Assembly: GCA_029252045.1 (NCBI GenBank)
Contig: JAQXCD010000068.1
Location: 1 to 64,000, forward strand
Direction of reading: 5' to 3'
Source of the DNA: Sulfitobacter sp.
Lineage (GTDB): Bacteria > Pseudomonadota > Alphaproteobacteria > Rhodobacterales > Rhodobacteraceae
DNA length: 64,000 nucleotides
The notes beneath the pieces are model-generated. The model did no database searches. It was not told the DNA's origin and worked only from the letters and a program-made list of their open reading frames with translations. Below, in pieces: positions 19,214 to 31,087 of this stretch. How positions within the stretch are numbered: the first letter of the stretch is position 1; the number at the start of each line of letters is the position of its first letter. A program made the translations under genes and the position numbers.

Positions 19214-19362
19214 AGAGTGTTTTGCCTGCATTAAAGGTATCCTTACTTGGAGCACTTGAGGTTCCCGTAAGGCTGGTGCGCCAAAATGCCGAGATGGCAG
19301 CTTTAGCGGCGAGAAGCGGGAGCCATTGCTTTTTTAACGAGACTGAGCAGTGTTTCTCATGA
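19210..19362 (+). CDS. Possible 50-aa micro-protein between nuoC and a membrane-protein gene
   Basis: TTG 19210 overlaps the nuoC stop (TTGA) and the TGA at 19360-19362 overlaps an ATG of the next gene (ATGA), so the frame exactly bridges the two. GAGGCGG precedes the TTG. The product starts [20 protein letters not shown] and continues with a helical stretch [15 protein letters not shown] and two Cys near the end. No family known. The bridging overlaps are the only support; without it the gap would be 136 untranslated bases. Confidence 0.4.
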
Positions 19363-19616
19363 TGTTGATCGTGCTATTGGTGGCAGTAGTACTTGTAATC
19401 GTAGTCGGTGCGATGTTCTCGGCTTGGTATGGATTGGTTATAGGTCTGGGTGTTGGTGTTCTTGTCGTGTTTTTACTCGCTCCGATGCAAGCAGAGATGA
19501 ATAGGGCCAATATGGGGGCTGGTGGTATTGGCGTTGGCATAACAATTGTTGTTGTGATCGCGCTGGTTGGACTGTTATTGGGCGGCATTGGTGCCCTTTT
19601 CGGCCGGCTGTTTTAA
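19359..19616 (+). CDS. Small three-helix membrane protein in the nuo operon (85 aa)
   Basis: Very hydrophobic: about 1-20, 25-43 and 58-84 are membrane segments rich in Val, Leu and Gly, with a short polar loop QAEMNRANMG. GTG 19350 is an alternative start three codons upstream. Its stop contains the nuoD ribosome site (AAGGAG), implying coupling. Not a known complex I subunit; comparable unassigned frames are known in the Paracoccus and Rhodobacter nuo operons. Confidence 0.65.
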   Translation: MMLIVLLVAVVLVIVVGAMFSAWYGLVIGLGVGVLVVFLLAPMQAEMNRANMGAGGIGVGITIVVVIALVGLLLGGIGALFGRLF

Positions 19617-20933: not shown

Positions 20934-22103
20934 ATGCTGCGCCGCTTACACGCTGACCAACCCGCTTCCTTTGCTTTCACCCCCGCCAATCAGGCATGGG
21001 CCGAAGCGCAGATAACCAAATACCCTGAAGGCCGTCAGGCTTCGGCGATTATTCCGCTGTTTTGGCGTGCGCAAGAGCAGGAGGGGTGGCTGACCCGTCC
21101 CGCGATTGAGCATATCTCGGAAATGCTGGGCCTTGCGTATATTCGCGGGCTTGAGGTGGCGACGTTCTATTTCATGTTCCAGTTGCAGCCTGTCGGCTCG
21201 GTCGCGCATATTCAGGTGTGCGGCACCACGTCCTGCATGATTTGCGGGGCAGAGGACCTGATCGGAATTTGTAAGGACAAGATTGCCAAGAATGCGCATG
21301 AGTTGTCAGCGGACGGCAAATTCTCGTGGGAAGAAGTCGAGTGCTTGGGGGCGTGCTCCAATGCGCCGATGGCACAGATCGGCAAGGATTATTACGAAGA
21401 CCTGACGGGCGACAAGTTTATCGCGCTGCTGGACGATTTGGCGGCAGGCAAGGTGCCGACCCCCGGTCCGCAGAACGGGCGCTATGCGTCCGAGCCTTTG
21501 GGCGGCCTTACATCGCTGACGGAATATGACAGCGGCAAGACGCAATATAACGCCTCTGCGCAGCTGGCGACGGATATTGGCGATACGGTAAAGCGGATCG
21601 ACGGGACCGAAGTGCCACTGCTGATGCCGTGGCAGGGTAAAGCAGCCAATACCGGCAAGAAGCCTGTAAAGGCGCCTGCTGCAAAAGCACCTGTTGCCAA
21701 GGCCCCTGCGACCAAAGCAAAATCCGTTGCAAAGCCTGTAGCAGGAAAACCTGCCAAGGCTGCTGAAAAAGCGGCACCTGCCAAGGCTGATACGTCGGCG
21801 GGCACAAGTGCCGGCAAGAAACCCCGCACGATGAGCGCGCCGCGCAAATCTGGTGCGGATGACCTCAAAATGATCAAGGGTATTGGTCCGAAACTGGAAG
21901 TCATGGTGAATTCCATGGGTTTTTTCCATTTTGACCAAATCGCAAAATGGGGTCAGGATGAACTGGCATGGGTCGACCAGAACCTCGAAGGGTTCAAAGG
22001 GCGCGCGTCGCGCGACAACTGGGTGGATCAGGCAGCAAAACTTGCACGGGGGGAAGCCACTGAATTCTCCGCGAAAGCAAGCAAAGACGGGCGTTATGAA
22101 TAA
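20934..22103 (+). CDS. nuoE: NADH-quinone oxidoreductase subunit E with C-terminal H3TH-like domain
   Basis: 389 residues, about twice the usual length. Residues 1-235 are the 24-kDa thioredoxin-like subunit with the [2Fe-2S] (N1a) ligands C96, C101, C137 and C141. Residues about 236-305 are an Ala/Lys/Pro-rich linker. Residues about 308-372 ([20 protein letters not shown] ... [15 protein letters not shown] ... [15 protein letters not shown]) form a helix-hairpin-helix domain of the COG3743 'flap-endonuclease-like H3TH' group. The family knowledge is that such domains are grafted onto unrelated proteins in alphaproteobacteria, including ribosomal L21. Its role in complex I is unknown; docking or nucleic-acid contact are both possible. 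Confidence 0.93.
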
Positions 22104-22140
22104 CGTCTGAAACAGTCCATCTGGGGGATAGATTTACGAT

Positions 22141-23112
22141 ATGGCACAAAGTGACAGTAATGCGGAGTGCATGAGCAATTGCTGGAAGATCGCGCTTGGC
22201 GTGGGAATTCTGGCGCTACTCGTGTTTTGGTTTTTGTTTAGTTTCAGCTTTTTCGGCGCGCTTTTGACGGGTGCGCTGATTGGCGTGGTTCTTTGGTTTA
22301 TCCTGCGCTCGACCATGTGCAGTGGTGATGGCGCTACGGCTGAGCCAGCTTCTGGTTCTGCACCTGCGGCGGCAAAGTCGGCTGCTGCTGCTGAGAAATC
22401 ATCGTTTGCAGATGTCCCGGCAGCGCCTTCTACAAGTGCCACCACGTCGGTACCTGCGGCCTCGGCTACTGTCAGCGAAACACGCGCGGCTAATACAACA
22501 CCGTCGGCCGCAATGGCAATGCCTGCGGCTACTGCAACGGCCGAGCCGAAGACTGCCAGCGCACCTGTAGTGGATGCCGCTCCTGCAACGGTAAAGCCTG
22601 CAACGAAAGCAAAGGCCGCACCTACTGCCAAAGCGAAAATAGCAGCTGCCAAACCAAAAGCCGCACCCGCGGCCAAGGCCAAGCCAGCCGCCAAGGCCAA
22701 GCCCGCTGCGAAAACTGAAGCAAAAGCCAAACCAGCTGCCAAAGCCAAGGCAGCAGCACCTGCTGCCAAGCCAGCCAAAGCTGCCGCTGCGGCCAAGCCG
22801 GCGAAAGCTGCCGCTGCGGCCAAACCAGCGAAAGCTGCTGCAACGCCTGCATTGCTGACTGCACCGCGTGCTGAAGGCAAAGACGACCTGAAGCTGATCA
22901 GCGGTGTTGGCCCCAAGCTTGAGCAGACACTGAACGATCTGGGTGTCTACCATTTTGATCAGGTTGCAAAGTTCAAGAAGAAGGACATCGCATGGGTCGA
23001 CGAGCGTCTGCGCTTTAAAGGCCGGATCGAGCGGGATGACTGGATGTCTCAGGCCAAGATTTTGGCCAAAGGCGGCGAGACTGAATTCTCGAAGAAGAAG
23101 AAAAAGACCTAA
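22141..23112 (+). CDS. Membrane-anchored H3TH-domain protein, paralogue of the NuoE tail
   Basis: 323 residues. Two N-terminal membrane helices (about 16-34 and 37-57), then a long linker of Ala/Lys/Pro repeats (about 60-240; units such as AKPAAKAKPAAKA), then DDLKLISGVGPKLEQTLNDL, VYHFDQVAKFKKKDIAWVDE and KGRIERDDWMSQAKILAKGG, closely parallel to the end of NuoE encoded just upstream, and a poly-Lys tip. A domain duplication inside the operon is the simple reading. With the anchor it would be held at the cytoplasmic membrane, where complex I is. Function unknown. Confidence 0.8.
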   Translation: MAQSDSNAECMSNCWKIALGVGILALLVFWFLFSFSFFGALLTGALIGVVLWFILRSTMCSGDGATAEPASGSAPAAAKSAAAAEKSSFADVPAAPSTSATTSVPAASATVSETRAANTTPSAAMAMPAATATAEPKTASAPVVDAAPATVKPATKAKAAPTAKAKIAAAKPKAAPAAKAKPAAKAKPAAKTEAKAKPAAKAKAAAPAAKPAKAAAAAKPAKAAAAAKPAKAAATPALLTAPRAEGKDDLKLISGVGPKLEQTLNDLGVYHFDQVAKFKKKDIAWVDERLRFKGRIERDDWMSQAKILAKGGETEFSKKKKKT

Positions 23113-23127: not shown

Positions 23128-23352
23128 GTGGCGCAACATGACGACAAACTGTCACGCGACGGACGGCGCCTTGCCCTGATAAGTGTGGCGGGCGCGTTTG
23201 CCTTTATTGGCATCGAGGCCGCCGGGACCATCTTTGGATGGTCAAACCAGACAATGGGCCTACTGGAGCTTGGCATCGCTGCCATTTTTCTGTGGGTTTT
23301 TATACAAGCATTCAGAATGTGGCGGCAACGCCAGTCTGAGAAAGACGGATGA
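23128..23352 (+). CDS. Small membrane protein, DUF5337-like (74 aa)
   Basis: GTG 23128 start. Charged N-terminus (AQHDDKLSRDGRRLALIS), two hydrophobic segments (about 17-35 and 43-62), basic/acidic tail FRMWRQRQSEKDG. The size, layout and position before nuoF fit a short family conserved in Rhodobacteraceae nuo operons (recalled as DUF5337, not verified). Ends five bases before nuoF, so it is cotranscribed with complex I genes. Confidence 0.65.
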   Translation: MAQHDDKLSRDGRRLALISVAGAFAFIGIEAAGTIFGWSNQTMGLLELGIAAIFLWVFIQAFRMWRQRQSEKDG

Positions 23353-23357
23353 GCTAA

Positions 23358-24653
23358 ATGTTGCAGGATAAAGACCGGATCTTCACCAATATCTATGGCA
23401 TGCATGACCGTACCCTGAAAGGTGCGCAGGCGCGTGGCCATTGGGATGGCACTGCCGCGATCATCAAAAAGGGCCGCGACTGGATCATTGACGAGATGAA
23501 AGCCTCCGGCCTGCGTGGCCGTGGCGGTGCGGGTTTCCCGACGGGTTTGAAGTGGTCCTTTATGCCCAAGGAATCTGATGGCCGCCCCAGCTATCTGGTG
23601 GTGAACGCCGACGAATCCGAGCCGGGCACCTGCAAAGACCGCGAAATCATGCGCCATGATCCGCATACGCTGATCGAAGGCTGCCTGATCGCGTCTTTCG
23701 CGATGAACGCCAACGCCTGCTATATCTACATCCGTGGCGAGTACATCCGCGAGAAAGAGGCGCTGCAAGCGGCCATTGACGAGGCATATGATGCCGGTCT
23801 GGTGGGCAAGAACGCGTGCAAATCCGGTTGGGATTTCGATATTTACCTGCACCATGGGGCAGGGGCCTATATCTGCGGTGAAGAGACTGCATTGCTCGAA
23901 AGCCTTGAGGGCAAAAAAGGCATGCCGCGTATGAAGCCCCCGTTTCCGGCGGGTGCAGGCCTGTATGGTTGCCCGACAACCGTAAACAATGTGGAATCCA
24001 TTGCTGTTGTGCCCACAATCCTGCGCCGGGGTGGTGCATGGTTTGCGGGCTTTGGCCGGCCCAACAATGCAGGCACCAAGCTGTTTGCGATCTCCGGTCA
24101 CGTCAACAACCCCTGCGTTGTTGAAGAAGCGATGAGCATCACCTTTGAAGAGCTGATCGAGAAGCATTGCGGTGGTATTCGCGGCGGCTGGGACAACCTC
24201 AAGGCAGTCATTCCGGGCGGCTCCTCGGTGCCGATGATCCCCGGTAAAGAAATGCGCAACGCGATCATGGATTTCGACTATCTGCGCGAGCAGCGGTCAG
24301 GTCTGGGTACGGCAGCGGTGATTGTTATGGACCAGAACACAGACGTGATCAAAGCGATCTGGCGTCTGGCGAAGTTCTACAAGCACGAGTCGTGCGGCCA
24401 GTGTACCCCATGCCGTGAAGGTACCGGCTGGATGATGCGCGTCATGGACCGTCTGGTGAAGGGCGATGCCGAGCCGGAAGAAATCGACATGTTGCTGGAT
24501 GTGACCAAGCAAGTCGAAGGCCACACGATCTGTGCGCTGGGGGATGCCGCGGCTTGGCCGATTCAGGGCCTAATCCGTCACTTCCGTGGCGATATTGAAG
24601 AGCGGATCGCCCATAAGCGCGGCAGCAGCGTGCGCACAGTGGCGGCGGAGTAA
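23358..24653 (+). CDS. nuoF: NADH-quinone oxidoreductase subunit F
   Basis: 51-kDa subunit that binds NADH and FMN and holds cluster N3. 431 residues: [20 protein letters not shown] (NADH/FMN glycine-rich site), [35 protein letters not shown], and the N3 ligands in [15 protein letters not shown] with [12 protein letters not shown]. The TAA overlaps the MAPEG gene start (TAATG). Confidence 0.97.
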
Positions 24654-25060
24654 TGGACATGTTCGAAGCATATAGCCATGCGATTGCGGCACTTGCCCTT
24701 TGGGGGATTCTGGTGTCGGTTCTGGGCGCAAATTCAACGCGGGGCCGGACAGCCGAAAACCGCTGCGACTGTGGCAAGCCCAAGCGCAATTATGATGACC
24801 GGTGGTACCGTAGCGAACGGGCGTTTATGAACGCTGTTGAAGGCTCTGGCCCGTTTATCGCTGTGACTGTTGCCGCGATCCTGATCGGCGGCGCGCCTTT
24901 CTGGGTTAACCTTTTTGCATCGTTGTTCATTGTCGCGCGGGTAGGGATGGCGGTTGTACATATCGCAACTGTTAATCAGGCGGCACGGTCGCTTTGCTTT
25001 ATGGTTGGTTTGCTGACGATCCTTGCTCAGGCCATTCTGGTTCTCAAAGCTGCGTTCTGA
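24653..25060 (+). CDS. MAPEG-family membrane protein
   Basis: 135 residues with four likely membrane helices and the motif RSERAFMNAVEGSGPFI, matching the R-x-x-R/N-x-x-E signature of MAPEG proteins (membrane glutathione transferases and eicosanoid enzymes). An unusual loop NRCDCGKPKRNYDDRWY carries two Cys. It is fused to the operon by TAATG overlap with nuoF. Known alphaproteobacterial nuo operons do carry non-complex I genes here; a link to glutathione-dependent peroxide removal is only a guess. Confidence 0.8.
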   Translation: MDMFEAYSHAIAALALWGILVSVLGANSTRGRTAENRCDCGKPKRNYDDRWYRSERAFMNAVEGSGPFIAVTVAAILIGGAPFWVNLFASLFIVARVGMAVVHIATVNQAARSLCFMVGLLTILAQAILVLKAAF

Positions 25061-26222: not shown

Positions 26223-26315
26223 GTGCTTTTCCTGATGGGAGGGGCGCTGTTATTGCATAACATAGGGACCACCCCACAGATGCCGGCAAGGGCAACAGCC
26301 CAGAGCAGCATATGA
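26223..26315 (+). CDS. Possible 30-aa frame bridging two nuo accessory genes
   Basis: GTG 26223, with AGGAAG seven bases upstream, opens MLFLMGGALLLHNIGTTPQM and ends at a TGA that overlaps ATG 26312 (ATGA). The N-terminal half is hydrophobic. Support is limited to the ribosome site and the overlap. Confidence 0.25.
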   Translation: MLFLMGGALLLHNIGTTPQMPARATAQSSI

Positions 26316-26326
26316 GGAAAAGTAAG

Positions 26327-26728
26327 ATGCGCCATTTGATCCTACCTGTGAGTGTTTTTGTTTTGATCGCCGGCGGCATTGCAGCCAAGCAACCGCTGCG
26401 CGAAATCAAAGCGATTGATAATGCGGTATTTGATGTTGCTGTTGCGGACCAGATACGCAAGAAGTGCCCCGATATTGCTCCGCGTCTGGTGCAGGCCTAT
26501 ACGCTCTATCGCTCAACCCGCAAACACGCGCGTGATTTAGGGTATAGTGATGAAGAGATCGAAGCCTACGGCGATTCTGATGCCGAGAAGGCGCGGATGC
26601 GGGCCAAGGGCGAAGCGTATATGCGTGCGAACGGGGTTGTGACCTCGGACCCGCAGAGCTATTGCGCGCTAGGGCGCAAAGAGATTCAAAAATCGAGCCG
26701 TATCGGCTCGTTGCTGAGAGAAAAGTGA
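26327..26728 (+). CDS. DUF5333-like secreted protein (133 aa)
   Basis: ATG 26327 has GAGGAAA upstream and gives [20 protein letters not shown], a signal peptide or single anchor; ATG 26312 would add five residues. Mature part: [60 protein letters not shown]. The two Cys could form a disulphide. It resembles the DUF5333 family of Rhodobacteraceae, found next to nuo genes (recalled, not verified). Four bases before nuoG. Confidence 0.7.
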
Positions 26729-30176: not shown

Positions 30177-30665
30177 ATGACTGATTATACCCGCCACGCG
30201 AAGTACTTCCTGCTTCAGGATTTCTACCAGGGCATGAAGCTTGGCATTAAGTACATGTTCAAGCCGAAGGCGACGATCAACTATCCGCACGAAAAGGGGC
30301 CACTGTCGCCCCGTTTCCGTGGCGAGCATGCGTTGCGCCGTTATGCGAATGGTGAAGAGCGTTGCATCGCGTGTAAACTGTGTGAGGCTGTCTGCCCCGC
30401 GCAAGCGATCACCATTGATGCCGAGCCACGCGAGGACGGCAGCCGCCGCACCACGCGCTATGACATCGACATGACCAAATGCATTTACTGCGGTTTCTGT
30501 CAGGAAGCCTGCCCTGTGGATGCGATTGTCGAGGGGCCGAACTTCGAATTCTCCACCGAGACCCGCGAAGAGCTGTACTACGACAAGACAAAGCTGCTGG
30601 AAAACGGCGACCGCTGGGAAGCCGAAATTGCCCGTAACCTCGAAATGGATGCACCGTACCGATGA
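30177..30665 (+). CDS. nuoI: NADH-quinone oxidoreductase subunit I
   Basis: 23-kDa-type ferredoxin subunit holding clusters N6a and N6b. 162 residues with [16 protein letters not shown] and [16 protein letters not shown], each followed by the CP signature. Stop overlaps the next start (ATGA). Confidence 0.97.
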
Positions 30666-31087
30666 CCTCCAAGAACCCATGGGAAGATATGATGCGTCAG
30701 GCGCAGGAAATGGCCAAGTCCTTTCCGGCGATGGATGCGTTTTCGCCCAAGGGTTTCGAGGACATGTTGGGAATGATGCCCAAGGACATGATGGAGACGT
30801 TCTTTGGCAACACACATAACCCCAACGGACTGGACGCCAAGACGCGGCTGCTGCTGACGCTGGCGGGTTTGACCATGCAGGGTGCGCAGAACGATGTGGC
30901 CTTGCGCCAGACGGTGCGCCACGCAGTGGAAGCGGGCGCGCATGAGCAACAGATTATCGAGACAATCGGCCAGATGTCCGCATTTGCAGGCATCCCCGCG
31001 ATGCAGCGGGCCATGACATTGGCGCAAGAAGTTTTGGAAAAAGACAAAGCCGGTAAATCGGCCAAGAATCCGGAAGGTGACGCATGA
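30662..31087 (+). CDS. Carboxymuconolactone decarboxylase-like protein without redox Cys (141 aa)
   Basis: Helical protein, Met-rich N-terminal half ([27 protein letters not shown]), then [20 protein letters not shown] and [20 protein letters not shown], the AhpD/CMD helical pattern. There is no Cys at all, so the CxxC-type peroxidase chemistry of AhpD is excluded and a structural or other role is likely. Overlaps nuoI and nuoJ by four bases each. Confidence 0.75.

Follow-up and report, generated by a model that had tools for sequence, protein, structure and literature searches.

A probable protein-O gene lies between nuoE and nuoF in Sulfitobacter and encodes a C-terminal domain related to that of NuoE

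Why does a membrane protein encoded just after nuoE end in the same domain as NuoE itself? The question arose from a stretch of 64,000 nucleotides of Sulfitobacter sp. (contig JAQXCD010000068.1 of assembly GCA_029252045.1, positions 1 to 64,000; hereafter the window), in which a first-pass annotation had described a linker and an additional domain past the normal end of NuoE, and the same domain in the next gene. It had suggested that the two proteins dock to each other or to RNA or DNA at the membrane, or serve complex I assembly. The description itself held up. Both open reading frames (ORFs) lie within the nuo operon, with nuoF downstream (Table 1; we take the ORF with the ESCGQC.PCR motif to be nuoF), and the neighbour encodes, within the first 60 residues, a pair of hydrophobic helices, then an Ala/Lys/Pro-rich repetitive linker, then the domain.

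Table 1. Features of the nuoE-nuoF interval, in window coordinates.
Feature	Position	Strand	Match or mark
nuoE, 389 aa, linker and H3TH-type domain at the C-terminus	20934..22103	+	NF009040, approximately full length
Ala/Lys/Pro-rich linker of NuoE	21639..21842 (approximate bounds)	+	net charge +16 by script
H3TH-type domain of NuoE	21855..22076	+	
Protein-O homologue ('membrane anchor'), 323 aa, 37 bases past nuoE	22141..23112	+	
Two-helix membrane hairpin of the homologue, residues 1-62	22141..22326	+	Cys10, Cys14, Trp15, Cys60
Linker of the homologue, about 180 residues	22327..22872 (approximate bounds)	+	net charge +21 by script
H3TH-type domain of the homologue	22873..23100	+	
DUF5337 protein of 74 aa, past the protein-O gene and before nuoF	23128..23352	+	PF17272, E=7.6e-14
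nuoF	23358..24653	+	ESCGQC.PCR motif

The core of NuoE belongs to the 2Fe-2S thioredoxin family (Pfam search, PF01257, E=2.1e-48, residues 24-169), and the protein including its tail matches the NCBIfam model NF009040, 'NADH-quinone oxidoreductase subunit E' (600 bits, cut-off 514), with residues 1-386 aligned to positions 1-399 of 400 in the profile. Because this match spans the tail, the long form of NuoE is already covered by a curated model. The NuoE of PDB entry 8qby, presumably that of Paracoccus denitrificans, has 239 aa, and its alignment with the window NuoE stops at residue 234. Within Rhodobacterales the tail proved common: in an order-level sample (n=150, completeness at least 95) that yielded 149 genomes from one family and 72 genera, NuoE was present in all 149 and carried the H3TH tail in 135. 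Beyond the family, among 115 class-level genomes, 101 of which gave a match, only G222 reached E<=1e-30 besides G000 and G036, a count that weaker tails scored as separate matches escape. One Sinorhizobium plasmid match of the H3TH domain carries the annotation NADH:ubiquinone oxidoreductase.

The C-terminal domains of NuoE and its neighbour are related, with 54% identity over 81 residues (E=7e-32); we use the labels H3TH and COG3743 for them as a working assumption. Pfam HHH_5 (PF14520) scored 14.8 bits on the NuoE tail, below its cut-off of 27, and was not listed for the neighbour. AlphaFold2 gave a confident model of the NuoE domain (pLDDT 88), and a Foldseek search of the PDB placed RAD51 chains at the top with weak matches (best E=0.5, none at <=0.001), weakly suggesting that the fold would look most like the helix-hairpin-helix domains of these chains. 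Below cut-off, the domain is also found at the ends of models for L21 (NF008915, NF008916), S2 (NF008966) and the phasin PhaH (NF045508), and in the window genome a third copy ends the organism's own ribosomal protein L21. Median likeness between the NuoE and neighbour domains was 0.66 within genomes and 0.65 between genomes, and 0.66 among the NuoE tails of different genomes, while 48 of the 237 NuoE and neighbour domains had their nearest relative in the opposite set. Within-genome pairs were no closer than between-genus pairs (46 of 96 positive), which lends no support to gene conversion between the tails or to their recent duplication and gives no sign of co-evolution. This equal likeness within and between genomes suggests that both tails are under the same constraint, as a common partner would give.

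Searched as a whole against PDB sequences, the neighbour protein matched 8yy9_O, 'Reaction center protein O chain' (E=8e-34), and 9wqv_a (8.3e-29). Because the domain accounts for most of these scores, we searched the hairpin separately. As a single query the window hairpin matched PDB protein-O weakly (E=0.25-0.32), and Foldseek with the hairpin model (pLDDT 74) put 9lts_A at the top of seven matches, again weakly (E=0.69). A profile of the hairpin family, made of 42 sequences with the window as first row and none titled Dinoroseobacter shibae, matched 8yy9_O (1.3e-10), 9lts_A (9.5e-10) and 9wqv_a (0.041), the next chain being a tetraspanin (0.099). Entries 8yy9, 9lts and 9wqv each include a reaction-centre M chain, and the title of 9lts is that of the D. 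shibae RC-LH1.

In D. shibae, mass spectrometry and cryo-EM identified protein-O in RC-LH1, where it fills the space separating the reaction centre from the LH1 ring, and its gene is located between nuoE and nuoF (PMC12079452). It is reported to have a Cys10-Cys59 disulfide, a periplasmic end that contacts RC-L 266-270, and a flexible C-terminal part that is unseen in the map and resembles the NuoE C-terminus; the available text of the report assigns no function and leaves undecided whether the gene is original or acquired (PMC12079452). Cys10, Trp15 and Cys60 of the window protein stand at the same places as in the D. shibae protein, Cys10 and Cys60 corresponding to the reported disulfide (PMC12079452). 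The window genome has pufL and pufM, and with them a type 2 reaction centre, and it has PufX (G000:C65:8306-8500). The gene past nuoE combines a homologous hairpin, a homologous C-terminal domain, the nuoE-nuoF location, the Cys pair and a host with a type 2 reaction centre. It is probably this organism's protein-O, with an N-terminal hairpin that would insert between RC-L and the LH1 ring. That the window protein sits in RC-LH1 and acts there as a spacer we infer from homology and from the survey of related genomes.

For this survey, nuoE-nuoF stretches were taken from the window genome and 148 others, one ending at a contig edge, and the membrane anchor was defined as an H3TH ORF that lies between these two genes and includes a 19-residue hydrophobic stretch. 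G152 and G049, whose motif the script missed, were read by hand; G052, cut at a contig edge with 853 bases, was classified by means of another contig and stands outside the hairpin and charge counts; and an initial H3TH search of the 149 genomes served as a source of totals and some coordinates only. Genomes with a PF00124 match (64 of 149) were scored as phototrophs. Of the 149 genomes, 106 have the gene for hairpin and H3TH domain in the nuoE-nuoF interval, namely 60 of 64 phototrophs versus 46 of 85 non-phototrophs (Fisher 4e-8, which ignores kinship). A tree-based two-trait test linked the gene to phototrophy (LR 12.5, p=0.014, 4 df), and with the loss rate alone dependent on phototrophy the rates were 0.012 with and 0.203 without it (LR 11.58, p=6.7e-4, 1 df), both tests using a single midpoint-rooted NuoE+NuoF tree without bootstrap replicates. 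The protein-O gene is therefore lost more slowly in phototrophs. In a separate, tail-selected sample, where PF00124 was checked in 35 of the 79 named loci, the nuoE-nuoF interval includes an H3TH ORF in all 11 phototrophs and in 18 of the 24 others. Roseovarius nubinhibens ISM, a non-phototroph by its lack of a PF00124 match, is an example of a genome that has the gene. Retention of the gene by 46 of 85 non-phototrophs implies either a second role or slow loss.

The gene and the NuoE tail occur independently of each other. The neighbour is present in 97 of the 135 genomes with the tail and in 9 of the 14 without it (p=0.55; tree test p=0.55), which speaks against a mutual requirement of the tails and does not support the neighbour as an obligate partner of NuoE; the tails could still dock to each other or to a shared partner. 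Whether or not protein-O is there, homologues of the DUF5337 protein occur, in total in 105 of the 149 nuoE-nuoF stretches (103 among the 147 that the script classified). Non-nuo ORFs of the window's nuo operon also include a DUF5333 gene (26312-26728, PF17267, E=3.8e-38), an 88-aa protein that is hydrophobic by eye and has no Pfam match (19350-19616), a MAPEG protein (24653-25060) and a carboxymuconolactone-decarboxylase-like protein (30662-31087). An extra H3TH ORF without a clear membrane helix was seen between the protein-O gene and nuoF, or directly 3' of the protein-O gene, at L031 5629-6531, at L034 5341-6234 and in the nuo stretches of G048, G051, G079, G085, G118, G160, G161 and G052; some of these ORFs have N-termini that look phasin-like by eye.

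The loop of the hairpin would lie at the periplasmic end, given the orientation in the D. shibae report (PMC12079452). At loop column 40, which corresponds to Gln38 of D. shibae protein-O, Gln occurs in 26 of 60 phototroph hairpins and in none of the 45 others (42 aligned there). Counted by genus, with mixed genera entered on both sides and ancestry handled through these counts only, it occurs in 13 of 26 phototroph versus 0 of 23 other genera (p=4e-5). Ser at column 37 is found in 26 of 60 phototroph and 2 of 45 other hairpins. The column-40 Gln may make a contact with RC-L. The window loop, SFFGALL, is without Gln. The Gln is anticorrelated with PufX, which is present in 5 of 26 rows with Gln and in 22 of 34 other rows (p=6e-4, kinship not controlled).

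PufX scored above cut-off in 31 of the 149 genomes, the window genome included, and all PufX counts refer to these 31 of the 33 genomes with a match. The four phototrophs without the gene beside nuoE (G081, G097, G129 and G169) all have PufX; the gene is present in 27 of 31 phototrophs with PufX and in 33 of 33 without it (p=0.05). The photosynthesis cluster of G169 includes a gene for a 205-aa protein made up of a hairpin, an Ala/Pro-rich linker and an H3TH domain, and this gene follows bchY-bchZ-pufL-pufM-pufX-dxs on one strand. The hairpin of the protein matches the family (E=1.1e-6, scaled to the PDB set size) but shows neither the Cys nor the loop signature, and NuoE tails are closer to its H3TH domain than protein-O tails are. 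No hairpin-plus-H3TH gene was found at E<=0.001 in G081, G097 and G129. H3TH matches elsewhere in G097, G054, G161, G065, G173, G043 and G177 were considered as displaced protein-O and rejected, being single-helix proteins. At L264-L270, elsewhere in the genome, the same H3TH domain occurs on a membrane protein with one helix; of the four of these loci whose neighbours were viewed, three adjoin a large ORF that looks OmpA/BON-type by eye and two lie near a pyruvate-kinase-like ORF.

Does protein-O persist in non-phototrophs merely by inertia? Under the most probable of the alternatives, the gene would have been recruited to RC-LH1 when the ancestors were phototrophic, and would be a passive relic that non-phototrophs retain only through their recent loss of photosynthesis and its place in a useful operon. 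The higher loss rate without phototrophy is what a relic would give. The Cys pair that flanks the hairpin is present in 68 of 105 surveyed hairpins, in 34 of 60 phototrophs and 34 of 45 non-phototrophs, and most of those without it (26 phototroph, 11 other) are partial alignments; the row of G063 was cut at the wrong place. Being commoner in non-phototrophs, the pair was rejected as a mark of photosynthesis; in the tail-selected sample it stood at 64 of 70, more uniform in look than in the 149-genome survey. Faster hairpin evolution in non-phototrophs, relative to NuoE/NuoF, was not seen among nearest-neighbour pairs (47 and 32, p=0.84), and over all pairs the hairpin to NuoE-NuoF ratio was higher in phototrophs (7.75 vs 7.09). 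With the Cys pair kept and hairpins evolving no faster, non-phototrophs seem to retain a working protein, and we regard a passive relic as unlikely. Since 46 of 85 non-phototrophs keep the gene and its hairpin evolves no faster in them, a role of protein-O outside photosynthesis is likely.

The neighbour might instead be a complex I accessory or assembly subunit that docks NuoE through the shared domains, its presence in RC-LH1 being secondary. This would fit the position of the gene, which 106 of 149 genomes, 46 of them non-phototrophs, have between nuoE and nuoF, and the presence of the domain on both proteins, with a median likeness within genomes (0.66) equal to that of NuoE tails in different genomes (0.66); moreover, the depositors of 9wqv named chain a 'NADH:ubiquinone oxidoreductase 41 kd complex i subunit', although the entry has a reaction-centre M chain. 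It is at odds with the independence of tail and neighbour in both the plain and the tree-based test and with the lack of any sign of co-evolution in the within-genome pairs. Besides 9wqv_a, no chain named as a complex I subunit appears among the five PDB matches of the hairpin profile up to E=10, although the solved species may lack the gene. The PDB relatives of the neighbour are chains of entries with reaction-centre M chains, and we consider the complex I proposal of the first-pass annotation quite improbable for the neighbour. A further possibility, which we hold to be similarly improbable, is that linker and H3TH domain form a common address tag: one partner, or contact from tail to tail, would gather RC-LH1 and complex I, which share a quinone pool, in one membrane patch, and in non-phototrophs the same tag on protein-O would hold another membrane complex. 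Least probable, and in our view very unlikely, is binding of linker and tail to DNA or RNA so as to tether membrane complexes to nucleoid or polysomes, which draws on the helix-hairpin-helix-like fold with its weak RAD51 matches, the positive linkers of the window and the same tail on L21, but which is weakened by mostly acidic domains (median pI 5.3 for the NuoE and 5.5 for the neighbour set) and by linkers whose charge spans -36 to +36, with values below zero for 61 of the 105 neighbours and 36 of the 132 NuoE proteins that were measured, a combination that does not favour a shared nucleic-acid role.

We therefore return to protein-O as a subunit of the photosynthetic core. Its hairpin would insert between the reaction-centre L subunit and the LH1 ring and would most likely serve as a spacer, an assembly element or part of a quinone path, like protein-U of Rhodobacter sphaeroides. 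The protein-O hairpin is similar to protein-U in place and shape, and the sequences are distinct (PMC12079452); protein-U is absent from the five PDB matches of the hairpin profile up to E=10, and no sequence kinship between the two was found. In R. sphaeroides, Trp32-Phe33 of the protein-U loop contact RC-L Trp265-Trp266, and deletion of protein-U lowered the share of RC-LH1 dimers and did not slow phototrophic growth (PMC8564508). Beyond the hairpin, a long flexible cytoplasmic linker would carry the H3TH-type domain at its far end, the same module ending NuoE on complex I and the organism's own L21, and the tail may reach a cytoplasmic partner that the NuoE tail also reaches. Most likely, the module would bind a cytoplasmic partner common to protein-O, NuoE and L21 and be no nucleic-acid anchor, a proposal for which the evidence is the shared constraint on the tails. 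The domain that these proteins share has the look of a cytoplasmic adaptor that different proteins can carry, not of a new complex I component.

A gene for a photosynthetic-core subunit within the complex I operon, encoding a domain shared with NuoE, makes a physical or regulatory link between two electron-transfer systems testable. Our survey adds to the single-species report (PMC12079452) that the gene is widespread in the family, untied to the NuoE tail, seldom lost in phototrophs and once located in the photosynthesis cluster. The same survey points to a role independent of phototrophy, a subject absent from the available text of the protein-O and protein-U reports (PMC12079452, PMC8564508). 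A narrow search of the open-access literature returned no earlier report of the family-wide pattern, the independence from the NuoE tail, the loop signature or the photosynthesis-cluster copy.

How does the pair compare with known systems? The window NuoE fits the whole of the NF009040 / PRK12373 NuoE model, tail included, with no difference seen, whereas the neighbour protein matches its tail portion only (profile 223-397). The tails of L21, S2 and PhaH likewise consist of a linker and the same domain, but are borne by ribosomal or granule proteins; the domain of the organism's own L21 scores lower, with 67 bits, than the two domains of the window, with 157-165. For protein-U of R. sphaeroides, the available text of its report describes no H3TH domain (PMC8564508). 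The closest counterpart is D. shibae protein-O (8yy9, 9lts), with which the window protein has in common the nuoE-nuoF location, a Cys-flanked hairpin, a long linker and a C-terminal domain shared with NuoE (PMC12079452). The D. shibae protein has 239 aa; the window protein has 323, with a longer linker and a loop without a GWSFLQ-like sequence. We would file it under protein-O, a kind described in 2025 from a single species (PMC12079452).
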